Shown here one piece after another: positions 1 through 38,051 of a DNA stretch of 38,051 bases. A model generated the notes under the pieces. It did no database searches. It had not been told where the DNA came from and was given only the letters and a program-made list of their open reading frames with translations. The DNA comes from a virus, in the IMG/VR virus record IMGVR_UViG_3300007734_000662, positions 1 to 38,051 of that record; one strand, given 5' to 3'. Within the stretch, counting starts at the first letter, position 1, and each line of letters opens with the position of its first letter. The position numbers were made by a program, and so were the translations under genes.

Positions 1-127
1 TGTTTACCTCGATGATCTTTTTTCATCTTGGCGGACATCGCCCGTCCAATATCTTCAAGACTTCCTGGCAAGCAATTAGCCCTAGCTTGGGTAGCCGTGC
101 AGTAGAACTGCTCCATCTCAAAGTTAA
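1..127. repeat. Terminal overlap, left copy
   Basis: Bases 1-127 align without gaps to 37925-38051 with 11 mismatches. Both encode the same stretch of polA with 10 synonymous changes and one Leu/Met change (Met in this copy). It marks circular closure from two sequence variants. Confidence 0.93.
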
Positions 128-2863: not shown

Positions 2864-3076
2864 ATGCCCGACAAGAAGATGGTTGGGGGTAAGCACTACT
2901 TATTACCGATCCAACCCGTTACTTACATCCATGCTAACAGTATACCGTTTATGGAAGGTAACATAATAAAGTACATTACGCGCCATCGAAGCAAGAATGG
3001 CGCAGAAGATATAAAGAAAATCATACACTACTGTGAACTAATCTTGGAGCTTGAATACAATGAATCAACGAGATAA
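2864..3076 (+). CDS. DUF3310 family protein
   Basis: This 70-aa protein matches the phage family DUF3310, sometimes labelled nucleotide kinase on weak grounds. The family signature is clear: GGKHY, then QPVTYIHANSIPFMEGN, then IKYITRHRSKNG and EDIKKIIHYCEL. The true activity of the family is uncertain. A GTG at 2813 would add 17 residues, but the ATG at 2864 has a GGAG at good spacing and starts with MPDKK as in relatives. Its end overlaps the start of the next gene. Confidence 0.88.
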   Translation: MPDKKMVGGKHYLLPIQPVTYIHANSIPFMEGNIIKYITRHRSKNGAEDIKKIIHYCELILELEYNESTR

Positions 3077-3521
3077 ACAAAGAAAAAGATGCCTTGAATA
3101 TTACCATAAAAATAAAAAAGCTATACACGAACGTGTTATGTTGAAACGCAAAGCGGATAAATTAAAAGATAATGTTGTAATCCCTCCAGTACCTCAAAAA
3201 AGCATCACCAAGAAAGAAATAATGGCTTTAATCGGCATTAAAGCATTGATGCTTGATAAGATCGTGAAAGACCCTCGCTATTGTATGCCTAAGCATGTCG
3301 CGACTCATATTGACGGATCAATTTTATACAACCGCGCCGAGATCATGGATTGGCTTCCGTATATAAGAGAAGTCTGCGCGTTCATGTATAAACGCCCCCC
3401 GATCAAATTAACTGGAATGGCAGCGCAAATTGTCCAATTTATGCACCGCAGTAAAGACATGGAGTTGTATTGTGATGATTTAAGACGTAAACAGTTAGAT
3501 GGAAGAATTAATAATGGCTAG
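3060..3521 (+). CDS. Hypothetical basic protein with possible winged-helix segment
   Basis: This 153-aa protein has a very basic N-terminus (roughly residues 3-45, rich in Lys and Arg) and a middle segment (about 50-100) that starts SITKKEIMALIGI and ends ILYNRAEIMDWLP. That segment resembles the helix-turn-helix plus strand layout of AlpA/excisionase-type winged helices, which suggests DNA binding. The resemblance is by eye only. The start at 3060 is preferred to a TTG nine bases earlier because GGAG at 3046-3049 sits at usable distance. It overlaps its neighbours at both ends. Confidence 0.65.
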   Translation: MNQRDKQRKRCLEYYHKNKKAIHERVMLKRKADKLKDNVVIPPVPQKSITKKEIMALIGIKALMLDKIVKDPRYCMPKHVATHIDGSILYNRAEIMDWLPYIREVCAFMYKRPPIKLTGMAAQIVQFMHRSKDMELYCDDLRRKQLDGRINNG

Positions 3522-3789
3522 GGATGTAGACTACGCCCTCATATTGCAAGTGCTTTATAGCAGAGGCTACACCTTAGCTAGTATATCAAAAGTTACAGGC
3601 ACAGCGGTAAGCTCATTATCTAATGTAAAACAAGAAACTAAACCTGTACCAACTGGCTGGCATGATGGCTGGGAAGGAATGGCATTGCAAGACTATTACC
3701 GTAAAGCACTAGGTGAAGCACCACCCCATGTTGGGGATTATATTGAATTAGAGGATTGTTATGAAAATGAAATATCCATTGCCAAATGA
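3514..3789 (+). CDS. Small helix-turn-helix protein
   Basis: This 91-aa protein has an N-terminal segment, ALILQVLYSRGYTLASISK followed by VTGTAVSSLSNVKQE, that fits a Cro/C1-type helix-turn-helix in pattern (helix, Gly turn, recognition helix). The C-terminal half is acidic with a WHDGWEGMALQDYY motif. It could be a small transcription regulator of the phage. The ATG at 3514 is chosen because GGAAG lies just upstream; a frame-matched ATG at 3499 has no ribosome site. The overlaps with both neighbours suggest one co-translated operon. Confidence 0.7.
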   Translation: MARDVDYALILQVLYSRGYTLASISKVTGTAVSSLSNVKQETKPVPTGWHDGWEGMALQDYYRKALGEAPPHVGDYIELEDCYENEISIAK

Positions 3790-7052: not shown

Positions 7053-7363
7053 TCTTTTATAACTGTGAAGAACTAGAAGCTAAACTTTATAAAGCTAGAA
7101 TGATTAATTTATATCTTACTATAGCATTAATCATATCCTTAATGGTTAATGTAGCATCAGCAGAATCAATCAACTGCACAACTTTTGGTACTTTAACAAC
7201 CTGTTCTAACGGTATGACTATTAATAGAATGGCCTTAGGCACAAACATCACTACACCTGAATTGCCGATCTTACCACCAATGGAGCAAATAGCACCTGCT
7301 ATGCTAGTTGCCCCATTTCCGCAAATTCAACCTATTGAGCCAATACCAGGCTTTAATAAGTAA
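7049..7363 (+). CDS. Small exported or membrane-anchored protein, unknown function
   Basis: This 104-aa protein has a hydrophobic helix at about residues 19-38 ending in NVASA, which looks like a signal peptide with cleavage before ESINC or a membrane anchor. The first 17 residues may be cytoplasmic, or translation may begin at the internal ATG for residue 18. The mature part has two cysteines (INCTTFGTLTTCSNG) that could form a disulphide, then a Pro-rich tail. It is the last gene of the plus-strand operon and abuts the stop of a minus-strand gene with no gap. A role in lysis (spanin-like) or in blocking superinfection is possible but unproven. Confidence 0.7.
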   Translation: MIFYNCEELEAKLYKARMINLYLTIALIISLMVNVASAESINCTTFGTLTTCSNGMTINRMALGTNITTPELPILPPMEQIAPAMLVAPFPQIQPIEPIPGFNK

Positions 7364-7525
7364 CTATTCAACTACTTCTTCAGCAGGCATCGCTTGAACT
7401 TGTGGGCCTGCTTGAAGTTGTATTTTTTGAATGACCGGAGCAACTTGGGTAAATTGACCAACTCCCAATGCGTTCATGATGATGTTTAGTTCTTCTAATG
7501 ACAATGTCAATGTAATTTCGTTCAT
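7364..7525 (-). CDS. 53-aa phage protein of the MNEITLTLSLEELN type
   Basis: This 53-aa protein begins MNEITLTLSLEELNIIMNAL, then has a GQFTQVAPVIQKIQLQA helix and an acidic end. The layout of a short beta strand followed by two helices is one I know from very common small phage proteins of unknown function found near lysis genes. Its ATG overlaps the lysozyme stop (ATGA), so it is the last gene of the late operon. Its stop codon is immediately adjacent to the stop of the plus-strand gene that ends at 7363. Confidence 0.75.
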   Translation of the reverse strand: MNEITLTLSLEELNIIMNALGVGQFTQVAPVIQKIQLQAGPQVQAMPAEEVVE

Positions 7526-30600: not shown

Positions 30601-30677
30601 CTATCCTCCTTTCAAAATTATATTTAACATCATTTACCTATGGTAGTAAAGTTTTTTACATCTTCTCTGAAATTTTT

Positions 30678-30766
30678 AAAAAAATTTCTCGTGGGGGAAT
30701 GGTCAAATAAAAAAAAATTTCTCGTGGGGGTTAATTTCAAATTTAAAAAAAATTTAGTTTGGGGGG
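30678..30766. repeat. A-tract/G-run triple repeat upstream of terS
   Basis: Two exact 20-base copies (30678-30697 and 30711-30730) of seven A, TTT, CTCGT and five G lie 33 bases apart. A third, degenerate copy (A-tract, TTT, AGTTT, six G) lies at 30745-30766. Bent A-tracts spaced about three helical turns apart could bind a protein such as TerS, or alter DNA shape. Confidence 0.8.
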
Positions 30767-31012: not shown

Positions 31013-31325
31013 TGTGTATATTGTGCATAACTGTTTTTATAGTTGTACACATTGTACACACAAGGGGTATTTGCGTTCCTTGCATATCTGTTTAAATTGG
31101 CATTTGTGTACAATGTGCATAATGTTCACACCTGTTTTTAATTGGTGCGCTGTAACATTTTTTTCCGGTAATAATATAACTATTATATTTTATTATTTTA
31201 TAACTAATATAATAACTACCATATACACATTATACACATAGCTTTCAAAGCCCCGTCAATAAAGGGCATGTTGTGTACAAAACTGCTTAAAATTCTTATA
31301 CACATCGATATACACAATATCCACA
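31013..31325. other. Candidate replication origin (DnaA-box cluster)
   Basis: Four exact matches to the DnaA-box consensus TTATNCACA lie at 31022-31030 and 31114-31122 (minus) and 31230-31238 and 31296-31304 (plus). At least eight one-mismatch copies lie among them: 31013-31021, 31043-31051, 31052-31060, 31105-31113, 31221-31229, 31272-31280, 31308-31316 and 31317-31325. Left boxes are mostly minus-oriented and right boxes mostly plus, flanking an AT-only-like core (about 31165-31220) that could melt. It lies next to the early promoter. Use of host DnaA is inferred. Confidence 0.7.
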
Positions 31326-31344
31326 ATTAACTGTAAAAGATTAC

Positions 31345-31381
31345 TTGACAATAAAACTAAATAGTTTTATTCTATGGTCAA
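31345..31381 (+). promoter_or_regulatory. Early promoter with palindromic operator
   Basis: A perfect -35 TTGACA (31345-31350), a 17-base spacer and a TATTCT -10 (31368-31373) face the early plus-strand genes. The spacer and part of the -10 are an inverted repeat (31351-31370) with 9-base arms ATAAAACTA and TAGTTTTAT around AA. Outer TTGAC (31345-31349) and GTCAA (31377-31381) are also inverted. A repressor bound here would block RNA polymerase. The start of transcription would be near 31380. Confidence 0.75.
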
Positions 31382-31428
31382 GTTTTCAGATTCCCTGGGA
31401 ACTAAAACACTAAATAAATGTAATCGAC

Positions 31429-31599
31429 ATGAAAAAATACATTATTAAAAACGAAAGGATAACTTTAAACCCTGCTTATAAAGTTGAGCTGCCAACAATC
31501 AATTTTAAAATTTATGTATTAGCAGCAACAAGCGCCTTGTTATTTGTTGGTGGTATTCGGTTAATATGTGAGCTGCTTGTAATGATTCAAGCAGCTTAA
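31429..31599 (+). CDS. Putative 56-aa membrane protein, first early gene
   Basis: This 56-aa protein starts MKKYIIKNERITLNPAYKVE and has one membrane helix at about 28-55 (YVLAATSALLFVGGIRLIC). It is the first frame after the early promoter, about 50 bases from the expected start of transcription. No strong ribosome site is visible. The family is unknown; early phage membrane peptides often modify the host envelope or block superinfection, but that is speculation. Confidence 0.6.
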   Translation: MKKYIIKNERITLNPAYKVELPTINFKIYVLAATSALLFVGGIRLICELLVMIQAA

Positions 31600-31630
31600 A
31601 AACTAAACTATAACTAAAAGGTAAACTAAA

Positions 31631-32020
31631 ATGAATCATTTTAATATCGAAAAAAAAATTAACGATTTACTAACCGCAAATGGCGCTTTCTTTGCATTTA
31701 CAGAACAACAATATAATGATGAAGCTTTGCCAGGTGTTGAGTATAAAAGATTGTATGCTGGAATGTTATGCCCATCTGATAACGTTAAAACTGTAATGAT
31801 TGGCCTTGATAACTTAAGCGATGAAAAAACACGCTGGGAACTTGCTAACAATTCAATAAAATCTATTATATGGGACTCATTAGCTAATTATGAATGTCAA
31901 ATAACAGGCAATTATAACGATGCTATAGGCGCGTTAGAAGTTTACGGAATAACTCAAGATGATGTTACAAAAGAATGGCCGGCATATTATCAAAACTGCA
32001 TTGACAACGACTACTTTTAA
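31631..32020 (+). CDS. DUF7659-like phage protein
   Basis: This 129-aa acidic protein begins MNHFNIEKKINDLLTANGAF and has a FAFTEQQYND-ALPGVEYKRL segment, a YAGMLCPSDNVKTV strand-helix and an end with SLANYECQITGNYNDAIGAL, YGIT and VTKEW. I recall this layout as a phage family (DUF7659) with no known function; the family name is not verified. An AAAGG lies before the ATG. It is probably expressed early with the genes downstream. Confidence 0.72.
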   Translation: MNHFNIEKKINDLLTANGAFFAFTEQQYNDEALPGVEYKRLYAGMLCPSDNVKTVMIGLDNLSDEKTRWELANNSIKSIIWDSLANYECQITGNYNDAIGALEVYGITQDDVTKEWPAYYQNCIDNDYF

Positions 32021-32024
32021 CATT

Positions 32025-32225
32025 ATGAACTCAGTATATAAAGCACAGTGTAAAACTTCTAAGATTGCCCGTGAGTTGGCGGGTAACTTTAGCAACGTAT
32101 CATCGATTAATGATAGTTTAAAACCGCCTTATTGCTTAAGAGTAGTAAAAGAATATAGATCTATAGAGATACAACAATTACGCGATAGTGTCGCTCAATA
32201 TATAAAAATAGGTAAATTAAAATGA
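32025..32225 (+). CDS. Small hypothetical early protein
   Basis: This 66-aa basic protein, MNSVYKAQCKTSKIARELAG and onward, has a C-terminal helix (EYRSIEIQQLRDSVAQYIK). It is not recognised. An in-frame ATG at 31959 lies inside the upstream gene and is less likely. The next gene starts at the overlapping ATGA, so coupling is probable. Confidence 0.6.
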   Translation: MNSVYKAQCKTSKIARELAGNFSNVSSINDSLKPPYCLRVVKEYRSIEIQQLRDSVAQYIKIGKLK

Positions 32226-32803
32226 AATTACAAGATTTAAGACTAGCATTAACCGCAACACCTAAAAAAACTGATATTCGTTATTGCCTTAACGGTTTAA
32301 AGATTACAAAAGATACTGTTTCAGCATCAAACGGGCATATCCTATGCCATATCAACACGTATCAAAACGAACTACCCAATCAACTAGATAATAATGATAA
32401 CCCTATTCCAGATAGTTATTTAATCGTTCCAGTAGAAACTATCAAAGCGCTACTTAAAAAGATGGGTAGTAAACACGAAACAAAAGAAGTATGTATATTT
32501 TTAAACAATGGTCGTTATGAACTGCAATGTATGAATGAAGTTGAGATATTTACACCCATTGAAGGTAAGTATCCAACTTTCGATAAAATACTAACACCGG
32601 TAAAAGCAAATAACCATGATGAAAATTTAAATAAAATCTTGCATCAATTTGATTGGGGATATGTCGCCCTGGCTAATGATGCTATTTGCAAGTATTACGG
32701 TAACACTACACCAAAACGTTTATACAGTTGTAATGAATGCGGTTATTTTATGCCGTCATTAGATAATGACATTATTTATGTAATTATGCCATGCAGGAAC
32801 TAA
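32222..32803 (+). CDS. Sliding-clamp-like protein (DnaN-type fold, short)
   Basis: This 193-aa protein resembles phage DNA polymerase III beta-clamp-like proteins. It has a DIRYCLNGLKI strand pair, a VSASNGHILCHIN segment (like the ATDGHRL of clamps), a SYLIVPVETIKALLKKMGS helix, a long beta stretch and EIFTPIEGKYPTFDKIL, which parallels the PxExGKFPDxxxVIP of clamps. Bacterial clamps have three domains (about 370 aa); this has length for only one and a half or two, so it may form a larger ring or act differently. It would help the replication enzymes stay on DNA. By eye the match is good but not certain. Confidence 0.72.
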   Translation: MKLQDLRLALTATPKKTDIRYCLNGLKITKDTVSASNGHILCHINTYQNELPNQLDNNDNPIPDSYLIVPVETIKALLKKMGSKHETKEVCIFLNNGRYELQCMNEVEIFTPIEGKYPTFDKILTPVKANNHDENLNKILHQFDWGYVALANDAICKYYGNTTPKRLYSCNECGYFMPSLDNDIIYVIMPCRN

Positions 32804-33511: not shown

Positions 33512-35815
33512 TCAATTCACAAGTGACAATTTTCTGTTTAGTTCCGGCTCAACTTTTTTCCTAAGTTCTGTTTTACTCAGCGCGTTAATGGCTTCATCAT
33601 CAGGCGCCATGTAAATATGTTTCACGCTGGGAAATTCACGCGACTTAAGGCGACCCATATCTTTCCAGCCAGCTTCTTTAAGAGCGTGTAGAAGTGCAGC
33701 TTGAGGAACCTTGATATTACCTGGTGCAGTATTAACTAACCGATCGCAAAGCGCATGGAATGGCGATGCTATCACGCCTGCTGCAAACTCACCGACACGG
33801 TTACGCATCAGCTCAACAAGATAAGACTCAGCGCTCGACATGCCTTGCTCAATTAAGTTTATTTTGAACTCCGTCATCATCGGTGCAGCTGCTGGATTGA
33901 ACGCTGACACGTCACGAGCATACAACCATGACGCTATGGCTTCATAGCCACCACCTGTCTTGAACCACCCCCACATTGATTGCGCTTCTGCGTAATCCAT
34001 ACGAGGAGCATGTGACCAAACGCAGAACCATCGTCTGTCTTGTGACTCTAATTGAATTGGTACAGGATCATTTGAATAAGCCAGCACAAACAAACGATTC
34101 ACCATATCGTAAGGGTGTAACCCTTTACGGTTTATAGACAACGTTTCTGGAGGCGCAGCAATGATCGGTTTTAATTTGTTAGCCAATGCCCGTCTTTCTC
34201 GTGCATCGGTTTCTTTTAGTTCGTTAAGGACTAAGATTTCACATTCTAATGCGTAACCAAACTGGCTGTTCATCGAATCGTTATCAATGTACCCTCGGTT
34301 CTTAAAGTGAGGGCCACACACTGCCCAGATGAAAGGCGCATACATCGTATCCTTACCAGCTCCTTGATCGCCACCATGCAGAATGGCGTGATTGATCTTG
34401 ATCTTAGGGTTTTGAACTTTGTAAGCCATTACGTTAAAGATATGCTCGAGTTCAGCTTCATTAGGAACTAAGTTCTTGCAATGGTCAAGCCAACGAGTAA
34501 CATTACCAGCCTTACCCGTCACATCAGGACGTGCATCACGCCAACGATTGCCGTACATGTCACCATCAAGAGCGGTCAACATGGTTTCCCCAGCAGCATA
34601 AGTGATCCCCACCAAAGCATGTGCGCCCATCGCTTGTCTGTTTTCGTCATAGCAAACTGAGGCTTCAATCTTACGCCCAGTATGAATGGACTTGCACTCA
34701 AGATGACGGAACAAAGCGTTGAAAGTAGATCGGCTGACTTCACGTCTGGCAACCAAATCAAAATAAGATTCATCGGCTTGAATGTAAGCGAATCTGCTGA
34801 ACCAATCTTTCTTTTCCAATCGTCCTAACTCCTTACGTTCGACTTCAGCAATAGCACTAGCCGCATCTTGGCTAAACATATCAGTAGGTTCGAGTTTAGC
34901 TAATGTATCAACCATAACTGATGCTAACAATTCTTCACGGATCCCATGCGAATGTTTCGGGCCACCTTCTGCCTGCACCCATTCAAGGTAGGTCTTACTG
35001 TCAAGATGTTGGCATGACTCATGGAAGCACATGAAGGCACGATTAACAGGATGATACCTTGCCATAGGATTGCCATCAGAGTGAGCAACAGCATTAATGC
35101 AAGTCACGCCAACCCAGCCTTCACCATTAGCACCCTCGATGACATCACCACGCCCAACAAGCCATGTCAACACATCATCTTTGCCATCGTCAATCAAATC
35201 CACACGCTTAACTGTTGCGGTGTCTGCTTCACATGGAGTAACGCCAAGCGCTTCACATATCTGAGGTAAGGTAAACTCTAATTCAGGATTGAATTTAACC
35301 AGTACGGACTTAAAATTATCTCGACCAGGCTTAAGATTGACACTATCAGGAAGGCGAAAATTACGAACGGCATTAATAGCGCCCCCATCAGTATAACCTG
35401 CATCAGCAATCGCTTTAATAGCTGCACTGAAATCCCCTTTAGTTGGTTGATCGTCAAGGCTGAAAGTATACCCGTATTGATAGTTGCCTGGTGAAGTTTC
35501 CATAATCCATGTTGGAATCAGATCAGGCATTTTTGATTTCGTACCGACATCATCTAACACCAAGAACGCCACCAACTCACAATTGCTTGCAGAAGCACTT
35601 GGTTTGCCGTCTTTAAAACGTTTAATAATAAAAGAGGCAGTATTGCAGTATGTTGCCCCCGAATGTTTAAATCGTTCTGGTAAAAAAGCAGGCCAACTAT
35701 ACTGTTGCGCTCCATCTTTATGAAATAGATTAGGCTTAGGAATTTGTTTAACAAATAATACTGTTTCATGCTCGGGCGCAATGGATATTAAATAATCGAT
35801 AAATGCGTTGTTCAT
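33512..35815 (-). CDS. Primase-helicase (AEP-like primase plus SF3 helicase, DUF5906)
   Basis: This 767-aa protein joins an N-terminal primase-polymerase-like domain (about 1-215; acidic motif FLVLDDVG at 85-91 and ETSPGNYQYGY at 106-116) to a superfamily 3 helicase of the D5/DUF5906 type (Walker A GDQGAGKD at about 480; VLNELKE and DRRWFCVW later). A linker with a His/Cys cluster (CFHESCQH, about 263-270) may bind zinc. It unwinds and primes DNA at the fork with PolA. Its ATG overlaps the HNH stop (ATGA). Motif positions are by eye. Confidence 0.9.
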   Translation of the reverse strand: MNNAFIDYLISIAPEHETVLFVKQIPKPNLFHKDGAQQYSWPAFLPERFKHSGATYCNTASFIIKRFKDGKPSASASNCELVAFLVLDDVGTKSKMPDLIPTWIMETSPGNYQYGYTFSLDDQPTKGDFSAAIKAIADAGYTDGGAINAVRNFRLPDSVNLKPGRDNFKSVLVKFNPELEFTLPQICEALGVTPCEADTATVKRVDLIDDGKDDVLTWLVGRGDVIEGANGEGWVGVTCINAVAHSDGNPMARYHPVNRAFMCFHESCQHLDSKTYLEWVQAEGGPKHSHGIREELLASVMVDTLAKLEPTDMFSQDAASAIAEVERKELGRLEKKDWFSRFAYIQADESYFDLVARREVSRSTFNALFRHLECKSIHTGRKIEASVCYDENRQAMGAHALVGITYAAGETMLTALDGDMYGNRWRDARPDVTGKAGNVTRWLDHCKNLVPNEAELEHIFNVMAYKVQNPKIKINHAILHGGDQGAGKDTMYAPFIWAVCGPHFKNRGYIDNDSMNSQFGYALECEILVLNELKETDARERRALANKLKPIIAAPPETLSINRKGLHPYDMVNRLFVLAYSNDPVPIQLESQDRRWFCVWSHAPRMDYAEAQSMWGWFKTGGGYEAIASWLYARDVSAFNPAAAPMMTEFKINLIEQGMSSAESYLVELMRNRVGEFAAGVIASPFHALCDRLVNTAPGNIKVPQAALLHALKEAGWKDMGRLKSREFPSVKHIYMAPDDEAINALSKTELRKKVEPELNRKLSLVN

Positions 35816-36315
35816 GCTGCCGCCATAGAATTAAATAAATGATATTTTTTAGCTGCCAAAGCATAAGCTTTTCGCGCCTCTAAAATTGTAGTGTAACGCC
35901 CTAAATTAACATTTTTATTATTAACGGAAATACTAGCTCTCCATAAATTATTAACTTTATCAAAAGATACCCCTCTAAAACCACTTTTATTTTTAGCAGA
36001 TAAGCCTAAATTTTGCCTGTTTTCGGCTAACGTAACTTCTCGTAAATTGATTAACCTATTGTCTGATCTGTTTCGATTAATATGGTCTAATTGATTTATT
36101 GGTAAACGCCCATGCACATAAAGCCAAATAAGCCTGTGAGATACATATCTAGCACCCAATAATGTAACGTATCTATAACCATCTGATTGAACAAACCCTG
36201 CTTCACGCCCTACAGAAACACCACGCCTAGGTAATTTATGTGTGATTACCCCTGTATCAGGATCATAACGTAATAATTCTTTTAATTGAGATTGTGTTAA
36301 ACTAGGTGAAGCCAT
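35812..36315 (-). CDS. HNH endonuclease with AP2 DNA-binding domain
   Basis: This 167-aa protein has an N-terminal HNH nuclease (about 60-105; LDHINRNRSDNRLINLR holds the conserved His, Asn and Asp) and an AP2-type domain (about 110-160; SGFRGVSFDKVNNLWRASIS and LGRYTTILEARKAYALAAKK). This is the usual build of phage free-standing homing endonucleases, which cut related phage genomes and spread by repair. It sits between the primase and polA, just after a hairpin terminator, and overlaps the primase start by 4 bases, so it has been fitted into the operon without an intron being visible. Confidence 0.9.
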   Translation of the reverse strand: MASPSLTQSQLKELLRYDPDTGVITHKLPRRGVSVGREAGFVQSDGYRYVTLLGARYVSHRLIWLYVHGRLPINQLDHINRNRSDNRLINLREVTLAENRQNLGLSAKNKSGFRGVSFDKVNNLWRASISVNNKNVNLGRYTTILEARKAYALAAKKYHLFNSMAAA

Positions 36316-36402: not shown

Positions 36403-38051
36403 CTACTTAGAATACCTTTCCATAGTATTTATTTCTACATCCAATGGCAAACCACTACACCATGGCGGTGCGGTACACATAACTTCTACCATACGGGATG
36501 ATATTTTTTCAGCTTCTTCTTTTTTACATTCCACGATAATTTCATCATGCACTGTGGCTATAATTTGTATTCCTTCCAATGAAAGAACCCTAAGTGAATG
36601 ACGAAGTAAATCGTTAGCTGTAGCTTGGGCAATGTTTTCTTGCGCAATTCCTTGCCAAAGTCTAGCTCTAGGCCATTCTTCGGCATCAGCTGTAGGTTTG
36701 AACGCGGCTTTTAAATATGTTACTGACCCATCATCTATACGCGCAAACGGGTAGCATAACACTCGCCCTGACGGAAGTATGTACCAAATATGCTCACCAT
36801 CAAACAAATACGTTACTCGACCAGCCGAGAACTCATGCCCCTTATGACGCATGGCACTCATGTAAGCACGTTCTAACTCTTGGCCGTAAGGTATGCACCA
36901 GGGGTTTGCCACACGCCAACCATTAATCATGCGCTTGATTTGATGCTCCGGCATGTTAAGACCATAAATTCTAGCCATTGACGAAAAAGCGCCTGCACCG
37001 CCCGAATATCCTAGCGCCAACTCTTGCACCTTACCGATGAAACGCTGATCTTTAGTAACTTCTTTAACGTTAAAAGTAGACTTAGCATTTTCGACATATA
37101 CATCACCACCGGATCGAAAAATATCAAGCTTTGCTTCCGATGCTACGTGATTAGATAACCACGGATTGCATCTCGCTTCAATACCTGCCCAATCAGCCAC
37201 GACTAAAACATTACCTTTAGCAGGGATAATAGCAGGTCTAATCATACCTTTTAAAACGTTTGTGACGCGCGTACCAAACGGACTAAGGTCATCGCCTGAC
37301 ATCATCACTGATCGCACTGCTTCAGGGTCTTTAGCACACACACGAGCCATGTTCTGTAACTGGACTCCGTATGAACTAGCACGGCCTGTAGCAGAACCGC
37401 CATTAAAAACAAACGCACCACGAACACGCCCATCTTCAATATCAGCCAGTTCAGCCATACGTTTAAACTTAGCCACCGATGACGCGCTAATGTCGTCAAT
37501 ACACTGAACAACGTCTAGCACTTCAACGGGTAAATCCATTTGCAGTAATGCCATCCGAGTAGCTTTGTTTAAGGATAACTTCTCATCCACCATCATCAGT
37601 TCAGGATCGATACGTTCTGCTACCCATTCTTTTAATTTAGGCGAACGTGCAGAAGCGATGCCTGTAATATCTTTAACTAACGCCTGAATATCCTCAAGCT
37701 CAGTCGTAGCATAACCGATAGCTGCATGACATAACGGCACATCGACTAATAATCCTTTGTCATTGATGCGTTCATTGACATGGTAATCCAGCAGTTCATC
37801 ATCAGATAATTGACGAAGTGCCAGACTGACTTCACGCATAGCATGAACATCTTGCTCACAGTAATGGATTAACTCAGGCAATAACGCAGTATTGTATGGA
37901 GGTACGCAACATTGACGGATTAACTGTTTACCTCGATGATCTTTTTTCATCTTGGCTGACATCGCCCGTCCAATATCTTCAAGACTTCCTGGCAGACAAT
38001 TAGCTCTTGCTTGTGTAGCAGTACAATAGAACTGTTCCAGCTCAAAGTTAA
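36403..38051 (-). CDS. polA: DNA polymerase A family, main part (5' end continues at 1-365)
   Basis: This is the C-terminal 549 codons of the phage polymerase; the reading frame is open to the window end and continues at 365-1 through the 127-base overlap. Exonuclease motif III YCEQDVHAM is near 37853-37879. Polymerase motif A is VVADWAGIEARCN, motif B KVQELALGYSGGAGAF and motif C ATVHDEIIVE, all in the right order, with the metal-binding Asp residues in A and C. An internal ATG at 37962 is not the start. It is flanked downstream by a hairpin terminator (36346-36386). Confidence 0.93.
   Translation of the reverse strand, partial: NFELEQFYCTATQARANCLPGSLEDIGRAMSAKMKKDHRGKQLIRQCCVPPYNTALLPELIHYCEQDVHAMREVSLALRQLSDDELLDYHVNERINDKGLLVDVPLCHAAIGYATTELEDIQALVKDITGIASARSPKLKEWVAERIDPELMMVDEKLSLNKATRMALLQMDLPVEVLDVVQCIDDISASSVAKFKRMAELADIEDGRVRGAFVFNGGSATGRASSYGVQLQNMARVCAKDPEAVRSVMMSGDDLSPFGTRVTNVLKGMIRPAIIPAKGNVLVVADWAGIEARCNPWLSNHVASEAKLDIFRSGGDVYVENAKSTFNVKEVTKDQRFIGKVQELALGYSGGAGAFSSMARIYGLNMPEHQIKRMINGWRVANPWCIPYGQELERAYMSAMRHKGHEFSAGRVTYLFDGEHIWYILPSGRVLCYPFARIDDGSVTYLKAAFKPTADAEEWPRARLWQGIAQENIAQATANDLLRHSLRVLSLEGIQIIATVHDEIIVECKKEEAEKISSRMVEVMCTAPPWCSGLPLDVEINTMERYSK
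37925..38051. repeat. Terminal overlap, right copy
   Basis: This is the right-hand copy of the 127-base overlap. Mismatches lie mainly toward the 3' end of the aligned segment (from about base 71 of the overlap), at third codon positions. Confidence 0.93.

Follow-up and report, generated by a model that had tools for sequence, protein, structure and literature searches.

A DnaA-box-like iteron array in a phage genome, very probably an origin of replication that the phage's own primase-helicase recognizes

Self-loading initiators of the D5/Primase_Cterm type, such as SaPI Rep, the SaPI5 primase-helicase, and SCCmec Cch2, work with iteron origins, and in both SaPI Rep and Cch2 the C-terminal domain binds iterons downstream of the protein's own gene (PMC7581432). 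P4 alpha, which has a Toprim (DnaG-type) primase, a helicase, and a winged helix in one protein, binds the origin repeats, unwinds, and primes (PMC4234260); its type I iterons are those of ori and crr. Phage NrS-1, which has a DUF5906-type primase-polymerase, carries the 8-nt recognition sequence of this protein only twice, and the Head and Tail folds of the protein were called novel (PMC7102993). In the PLE satellites of Vibrio cholerae, the specificity of the initiator RepA and the iterons co-vary and have been exchanged repeatedly; moreover, the ICP1 nuclease Odn mimics RepA and attacks the PLE origin (PMC8263062).

We analyzed a 38,051-nucleotide stretch of DNA, referred to here as the window (IMG/VR record IMGVR_UViG_3300007734_000662), which is a bacteriophage record with a podovirus-type gene set. 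The original prediction was that a dense cluster of DnaA boxes at 31013-31325 is a phage replication origin of host type that uses host DnaA. We conclude that this region is very probably an iteron origin of the phage, read and opened by its own primase-helicase via a C-terminal wing, with no need of host DnaA for recognition, and that the box word and the wing switch together in sister phages.

The window protein is like SaPI Rep, the SaPI5 primase-helicase, and Cch2 in combining a primase and/or helicase with a C-terminal domain predicted to read iterons, and its predicted structure matches those of 7ola (the SaPI5 protein) and 7pds. Unlike SaPI Rep and Cch2, it belongs to a phage replication module with PolA, its array lies ~2.2 kb past the gene and beside terS, the iterons form abutting 9-bp pairs, and even close relatives differ in their word through switching. 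With P4 alpha it shares the predicted union of primase, helicase, and winged helix in one protein, but scans against Pfam, PHROG, and NCBIfam gave no Toprim or P4 alpha match to the window protein. By both profile and structure, the helicase region matches NrS-1 best (6k9c), yet neither an iteron array nor a winged helix is described for it (PMC7102993), in contrast to the array and the predicted winged helix here. PLE RepA differs further: it is a RepA_N initiator with ~30-bp semi-palindromic iterons in few variants, whereas the window-type phages have an unrelated initiator and many words, with iterons replaced within a conserved scaffold.

The box array and its genomic setting

The prediction of four exact and at least eight one-mismatch TTATNCACA boxes within 313 bp was reproduced by our scan (Table 1), with exact boxes starting at 31022(-), 31114(-), 31230(+), and 31296(+), and one-mismatch boxes at 31013(-), 31043(+), 31052(+), 31105(-), 31221(+), 31272(-), 31308(+), and 31317(+). 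We compared these counts with 2000 dinucleotide shuffles of 31013-31325, which is AT-rich (30% GC). The shuffles held on average 0.11 exact boxes (maximum 2) and 1.57 boxes with up to one mismatch (maximum 7), and 0 of 2000 attained either 4 exact or 12 near boxes; the density is not that of shuffled AT-matched sequence. Since a scan of the whole window found no excess of TTATNCACA (48 observed, 57.7 expected), the box signal is a local cluster. Any other 313-bp stretch of the window has at most 2 boxes, and an unbiased search for clustered over-represented 8-mers ranked this cluster first in the 38-kb window; neither this search nor the window scan found a second cluster of the window's iteron word.

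Table 1. Parts of the array and of its proposed reader (window coordinates)
Feature	Positions	Strand	Basis
Iteron array, 12 boxes with <=1 mismatch from TTATNCACA, class word WTRTRCACA, 9-bp head-to-tail pairs	31013..31325	.	scan, shuffles
Head-to-tail pair ATATACACA / TTATGCACA	31013..31030	-	
Head-to-tail pair TTGTACACA x2	31043..31060	+	
Head-to-tail pair TTGTACACA / TTATGCACA	31105..31122	-	
Weaker copy ATGTTCACA, overlapping pair 31105-31122	31122..31130	+	
AT-rich core separating the two iteron groups (A+T up to 90%), candidate unwinding element	31150..31215	.	unwinding role inferred
Head-to-tail pair ATATACACA / TTATACACA	31221..31238	+	
Single box TTGTACACA	31272..31280	-	
Single box TTATACACA	31296..31304	+	
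Head-to-tail pair ATATACACA / ATATCCACA	31308..31325	+	
Primase-helicase, 767 aa (PHROG DNA primase, DUF5906 / superfamily-3-type helicase), proposed iteron reader	33512..35815	-	
Codons ~aa 680-740, predicted winged helix	33596..33778	-	AlphaFold2
Codons aa 719-736 (DMGRLKSREFPSVKHIYM), last strands + wing, proposed specificity-determining segment	33608..33661	-	co-variation

The orientation of the boxes (left - - + + - -, right + + - + + +) was as originally described, and the AT-rich core between the two groups lies at ~31150-31215. A further point, absent from that description, is that neighboring boxes directly adjoin one another, head to tail with a spacing of exactly 9 bp, on both sides of the core. 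The left edge of the core holds CGCTGTAACATTTTTTTCCGG, a non-iteron element common to some relatives with other words. The region displays the hallmark of an oriC-like region, a TTATNCACA box cluster beside an AT-rich element, as well as that of an iteron origin, short repeats arrayed next to an AT-rich region or on its two sides. In contrast, the turn in GC skew that had been named as a check is absent from the array, as the cumulative minimum lies at 37989 and the maximum at 7079. A distant minimum had been named as a refuting outcome, and this result thus speaks against the original interpretation, though GC skew is a poor origin test here, since the curve broadly tracks gene strand. Cumulative T-A does peak at 31199, but per-gene third-position skews show no clean switch, and AT skew was dropped as an origin marker.

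The array sits between two divergent operons, terS-terL (leftwards from 30600) and 31429-32803 (rightwards). Relative to the putative start of terS (30600), it lies ~410-725 bp upstream; terS itself is assigned from position and homology to relatives. Family scans bore out the PolA, the primase-helicase, and the weakly DnaN-like (clamp-like) protein of the original prediction; a DUF2800 protein, a VRR-type nuclease, and an SNF2-type helicase are also encoded. The ends of the window (1-127 and 37925-38051) share a 127-bp overlap with 91% identity, across which the polA frame is continuous; therefore the genome, which is not flagged as having terminal repeats, is probably circularly permuted, nearly complete, and assembled from mixed strains.

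Several neighboring elements were noted in the course of this analysis. An inverted repeat at 31335-31386 (ACTTGAC...GTCAAGT and AAAACTAAATAGTTTT) spans a sigma-70-like promoter (TTGACA-17-TATTCT, 31345-31373) that adjoins the right iteron group and faces the 31429-32803 operon; this repeat is likely a repressor operator, and similar palindromes are also present in relatives with other iteron words. Before terS, at 30671-30765, a 27-nt element occurs three times, each copy consisting of an A/T run and then GTGGGGG or a near match to it; it is similar in relatives and a candidate packaging or terminator element. An HNH endonuclease gene with an AP2 domain (35812-36315), between primase and polA, is missing or elsewhere in many relatives and looks like a mobile homing-type gene. 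Several close relatives have the array but lack the genes at 31631-32803 (DUF7659, an 88-aa ORF, and the DnaN-like protein), and thus these three are not needed for it.

Different words on a conserved scaffold

Relatives were collected by scanning viral contigs with the terminase and primase, which yielded 160 loci. In most, the same spot, between the primase gene and terS, is occupied by a comparably dense array with a different word. A generic PWM motif finder run on each region gave mixed output in AT-rich and simple-repeat regions and was replaced by neighbor-counted words. A strongly over-represented 9-mer was found in 59 of 65 non-identical pre-terS regions, in a few of which the top word may not be the iteron, and copies often numbered 9-20 per 450 bp, compared to <1 expected. 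The window and its closest kin have TTRTACACA; the other 9-bp words include TTGCWTACA, with TTGCTTACA/TTGCATACA in L005, L088, L094, L095, and L099; WTGATACAT (L002, L100, and L104); TTGCTAACA (L103 and L106); TTGCCCACA (L133-L143); TTGTCCACA (L064, and L208 from a later scan of bacterial genome contigs); ATGACCCAT (L158-L161); and TTRCCTACA (L025). In Vibrio phage isolates, which are distant homologues, the primase has a different C-terminus and no comparable array was found near it.

Among close relatives, the three main words are mutually exclusive over the last 1.3 kb before terS: WTRTRCACA has 8-11 copies in the window, L087, L096, and L092 and 0 in L088, L099, L095, L100, L002, and L104, while TTGCWTACA has 5-6 copies in L088, L099, and L095, and WTGATACAT has 10-11 in L100, L002, and L104. 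The scaffold is nevertheless shared. The spacing is exactly 9 bp in 90 of 127 same-strand neighbors, across word classes, and an alignment of five close relatives places different boxes at the same positions and in the same orientations, with flanks that remain recognizable. In the L102-L106/L157 group, non-iteron words such as GGCGGGGCTATA are also common across several word classes. Phages with 93-100% identical terminases carry same-place arrays of words that are not DnaA boxes (e.g., TTGCWTACA, WTGATACAT). The conservation of box sequence along with the origin that is expected of an oriC-like region, whose reader (host DnaA) is itself conserved, was not observed, as sister phages differ in word on the same scaffold.

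A DnaA-type DNA-binding domain (PF08299) was not found in the window proteins, and it is absent from 25 relatives searched, the sole carrier being MW202483. In this phage (MW202483.1, isolate ctNMl277, locus L211), a free-standing 98-aa DnaA DNA-binding domain is encoded at 7083-7379 (PF08299, E 1e-17) and the array word is ATGTAAAC-like; the domain is possibly a DnaA decoy or regulator.

The primase-helicase wing and the word

Because the boxes differ despite nearly identical terminases, we searched for a phage protein that changes with the word. We screened 30 window proteins for positions that separate TTRTACACA from TTGCTTACA phages, and found a tight group of residues in the primase only (723, 724, 729, 730, and 736), with no such group in TerS, TerL, PolA, or two small putative HTH proteins. 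A few scattered positions in SNF2, o57, and HNH also separate the classes, although the HNH matches are unrelated copies. TerS, TerL, PolA, the small putative HTH proteins (3051-3521 and 3499-3789), and the clamp-like protein were rejected as readers; they failed the screen or the co-variation analysis, or are absent from relatives that keep the array.

As an objective test of co-variation, we measured word likeness by cross-scanning among 59 loci and controlled for backbone identity. Of 666 variable primase columns, the top four after this control were 724, 726, 729, and 720 (partial r 0.29-0.23), compared to best values elsewhere of 0.14 in TerS, 0.09 in TerL, and 0.12 in PolA; smaller signals occur at primase columns 302, 701, and 228. 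Within backbone clusters (groups >= ~88% identical, with p by permutation), wing identity predicts word likeness (r 0.86, p 2e-4), while values are lower for primase aa 1-640 (r 0.49, p 0.15), TerS (r 0.15, p 0.14), and TerL (r 0.07). The correlation for primase aa 641-718 (r 0.56, p 2e-4) is as expected if the C-terminal domain is exchanged as a block.

Individual pairs illustrate this relationship. The L099 and L100 primases differ in 17 of 765 residues, 7 of them in 719-737 and 0 in 640-718, and the words are TTGCWTACA and WTGATACAT; likewise, L096 and L100 have 23 differences, 5 in 719-737 and 0 in 640-718, with WTRTRCACA and WTGATACAT. Conversely, L104, on another backbone, has a wing (KSADYPSQ) that resembles that of L100 (KSTDFPSQ), and both have the same word; similarly, the wing of L208 (KSRRHDS) resembles that of L064 (KSREYDA), the two TTGTCCACA loci. 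Across lineages with backbones less than 65% identical, wing identity is only a weak predictor of the word (r 0.23), in part through noisy word calls and in part because the code must be context-dependent; thus, the recognition code is not simple. The concentration of co-variation in aa 719-736 points, indirectly, to the C-terminal domain as the probable determinant of iteron specificity.

The predicted fold of the protein is consistent with such a role. A sequence-profile search matched the helicase region to NrS-1 (E 1e-12), and Foldseek with the whole AlphaFold2 model returned the NrS-1 helicase region (E 1e-18), the SaPI5 primase-helicase, and PriRep1 (7pds). Together with the DUF5906 and DNA primase matches, these structures indicate a superfamily-3-type helicase with a primase, the primase region being assigned from the PHROG name and the arrangement. 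In the C-terminal part, the modeled order of elements (strand 681-683, helix 686-694, helix 705-714, strand 718-723, wing, strand 732-736) is that of a winged-helix DNA-binding domain, in which the variable residues lie in and beside the predicted wing and the helix before the wing is conserved. The isolated C-terminal domain gave no significant Foldseek match (the best was replication terminator protein, E 0.035), and a P4 alpha domain was not among the matches listed.

Competing explanations and biological meaning

Three other explanations were weighed. It is very unlikely, in our judgment, that these are DnaA boxes at which host DnaA melts the AT-rich core before the phage primase-helicase is loaded, even though the four exact boxes fit the R-box consensus of E. 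coli and lie around an AT-rich stretch, and DnaA-box-like words occur in three lineages (the window type, L064, and L208). Against this, the scaffold in sister phages is retained but filled with words other than DnaA boxes, and the word goes with a segment of a phage protein; furthermore, the window array lacks TTATCCACA, which in bacterial origins is usually the most frequent box, and abutting 9-bp pairs are not a typical oriC arrangement. The idea we find least credible is that of a packaging (cos/pac) array bound by TerS, on the model of the lambda R sites, which lie just upstream of the small terminase gene and are bound by its product. The distance from the array to terS would suit it, as packaging sites typically comprise repeats upstream of terS, but TerS identity fails to predict the word within clusters and no TerS residue separates the word classes, such that the co-variation expected for a cos/pac site was not seen.

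We also think it improbable that the array serves transcriptional or copy-number control, like P4 crr, with the primase-helicase or another phage protein binding the boxes to regulate the divergent terS and 31429-32803 operons and with the true origin located elsewhere. P4 uses one kind of iteron for both ori and crr, and the sigma-70-like promoter beside the right iteron group would fit such an arrangement; yet the reader appears to be a replication enzyme, the array flanks an AT-rich core, and no second cluster of the word was found in the window.

We therefore favor initiation by the phage's own protein. By analogy with SaPI Rep and SCCmec Cch2, which bind iterons C-terminally, and with P4 alpha, the primase-helicase would use the wing of its C-terminal winged helix to recognize the 9-bp iterons, assemble as rings on the two iteron groups, open the AT-rich core lying between them, load itself as helicase, and prime synthesis for the phage PolA. 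What computation establishes is the array, its other-word counterparts, the 9-bp phasing, the in-place replacement, the co-variation with aa 719-736, and a predicted winged helix; binding, ring loading, melting, priming, and origin activity we infer. Since word and wing switch together in sister phages, with all iterons rewritten and the scaffold conserved, the DnaA-box match would be a by-product of the lineage's current word, and DnaA-like words recur in a minority of relatives. Thus, the call of a phage replication origin was probably correct, given iterons that flank an AT-rich core and co-vary with a replicative primase-helicase, and the host DnaA mechanism was probably wrong, given the sister arrays, the tracking of a phage protein by the word, and the lack of PF08299 in the window. 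Host DnaA may still bind some of the boxes as a secondary activity.

We consider the chances even that this lineage of environmental phages repeatedly rewrites its whole origin in place, each of the ~10-15 iterons turning into a new 9-bp word along with changes in 5-7 wing residues of the initiator, to yield a multitude of mutually exclusive replicons whose genomes are nearly identical. Such rewriting could be driven by the need to escape parasites or nucleases directed at the origin, or to avoid interference when relatives co-infect. Switching as such is already known with an unrelated initiator, PLE RepA (PMC8263062); what is new is that an initiator of this type is combined with the frequent switching of an entire iteron set. 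An apparent host-DnaA origin thereby becomes evidence for phage-encoded initiation, a caution that phage origins can be misnamed by DnaA-box scans. The relatives also offer dozens of word-wing pairs, some of them on backbones that are nearly identical, as a natural data set that could reveal the recognition code of a winged-helix wing. Finally, a second, unrelated case of origin-specificity switching in phage-related elements, besides PLE RepA, makes selection for new origins a directly testable question.
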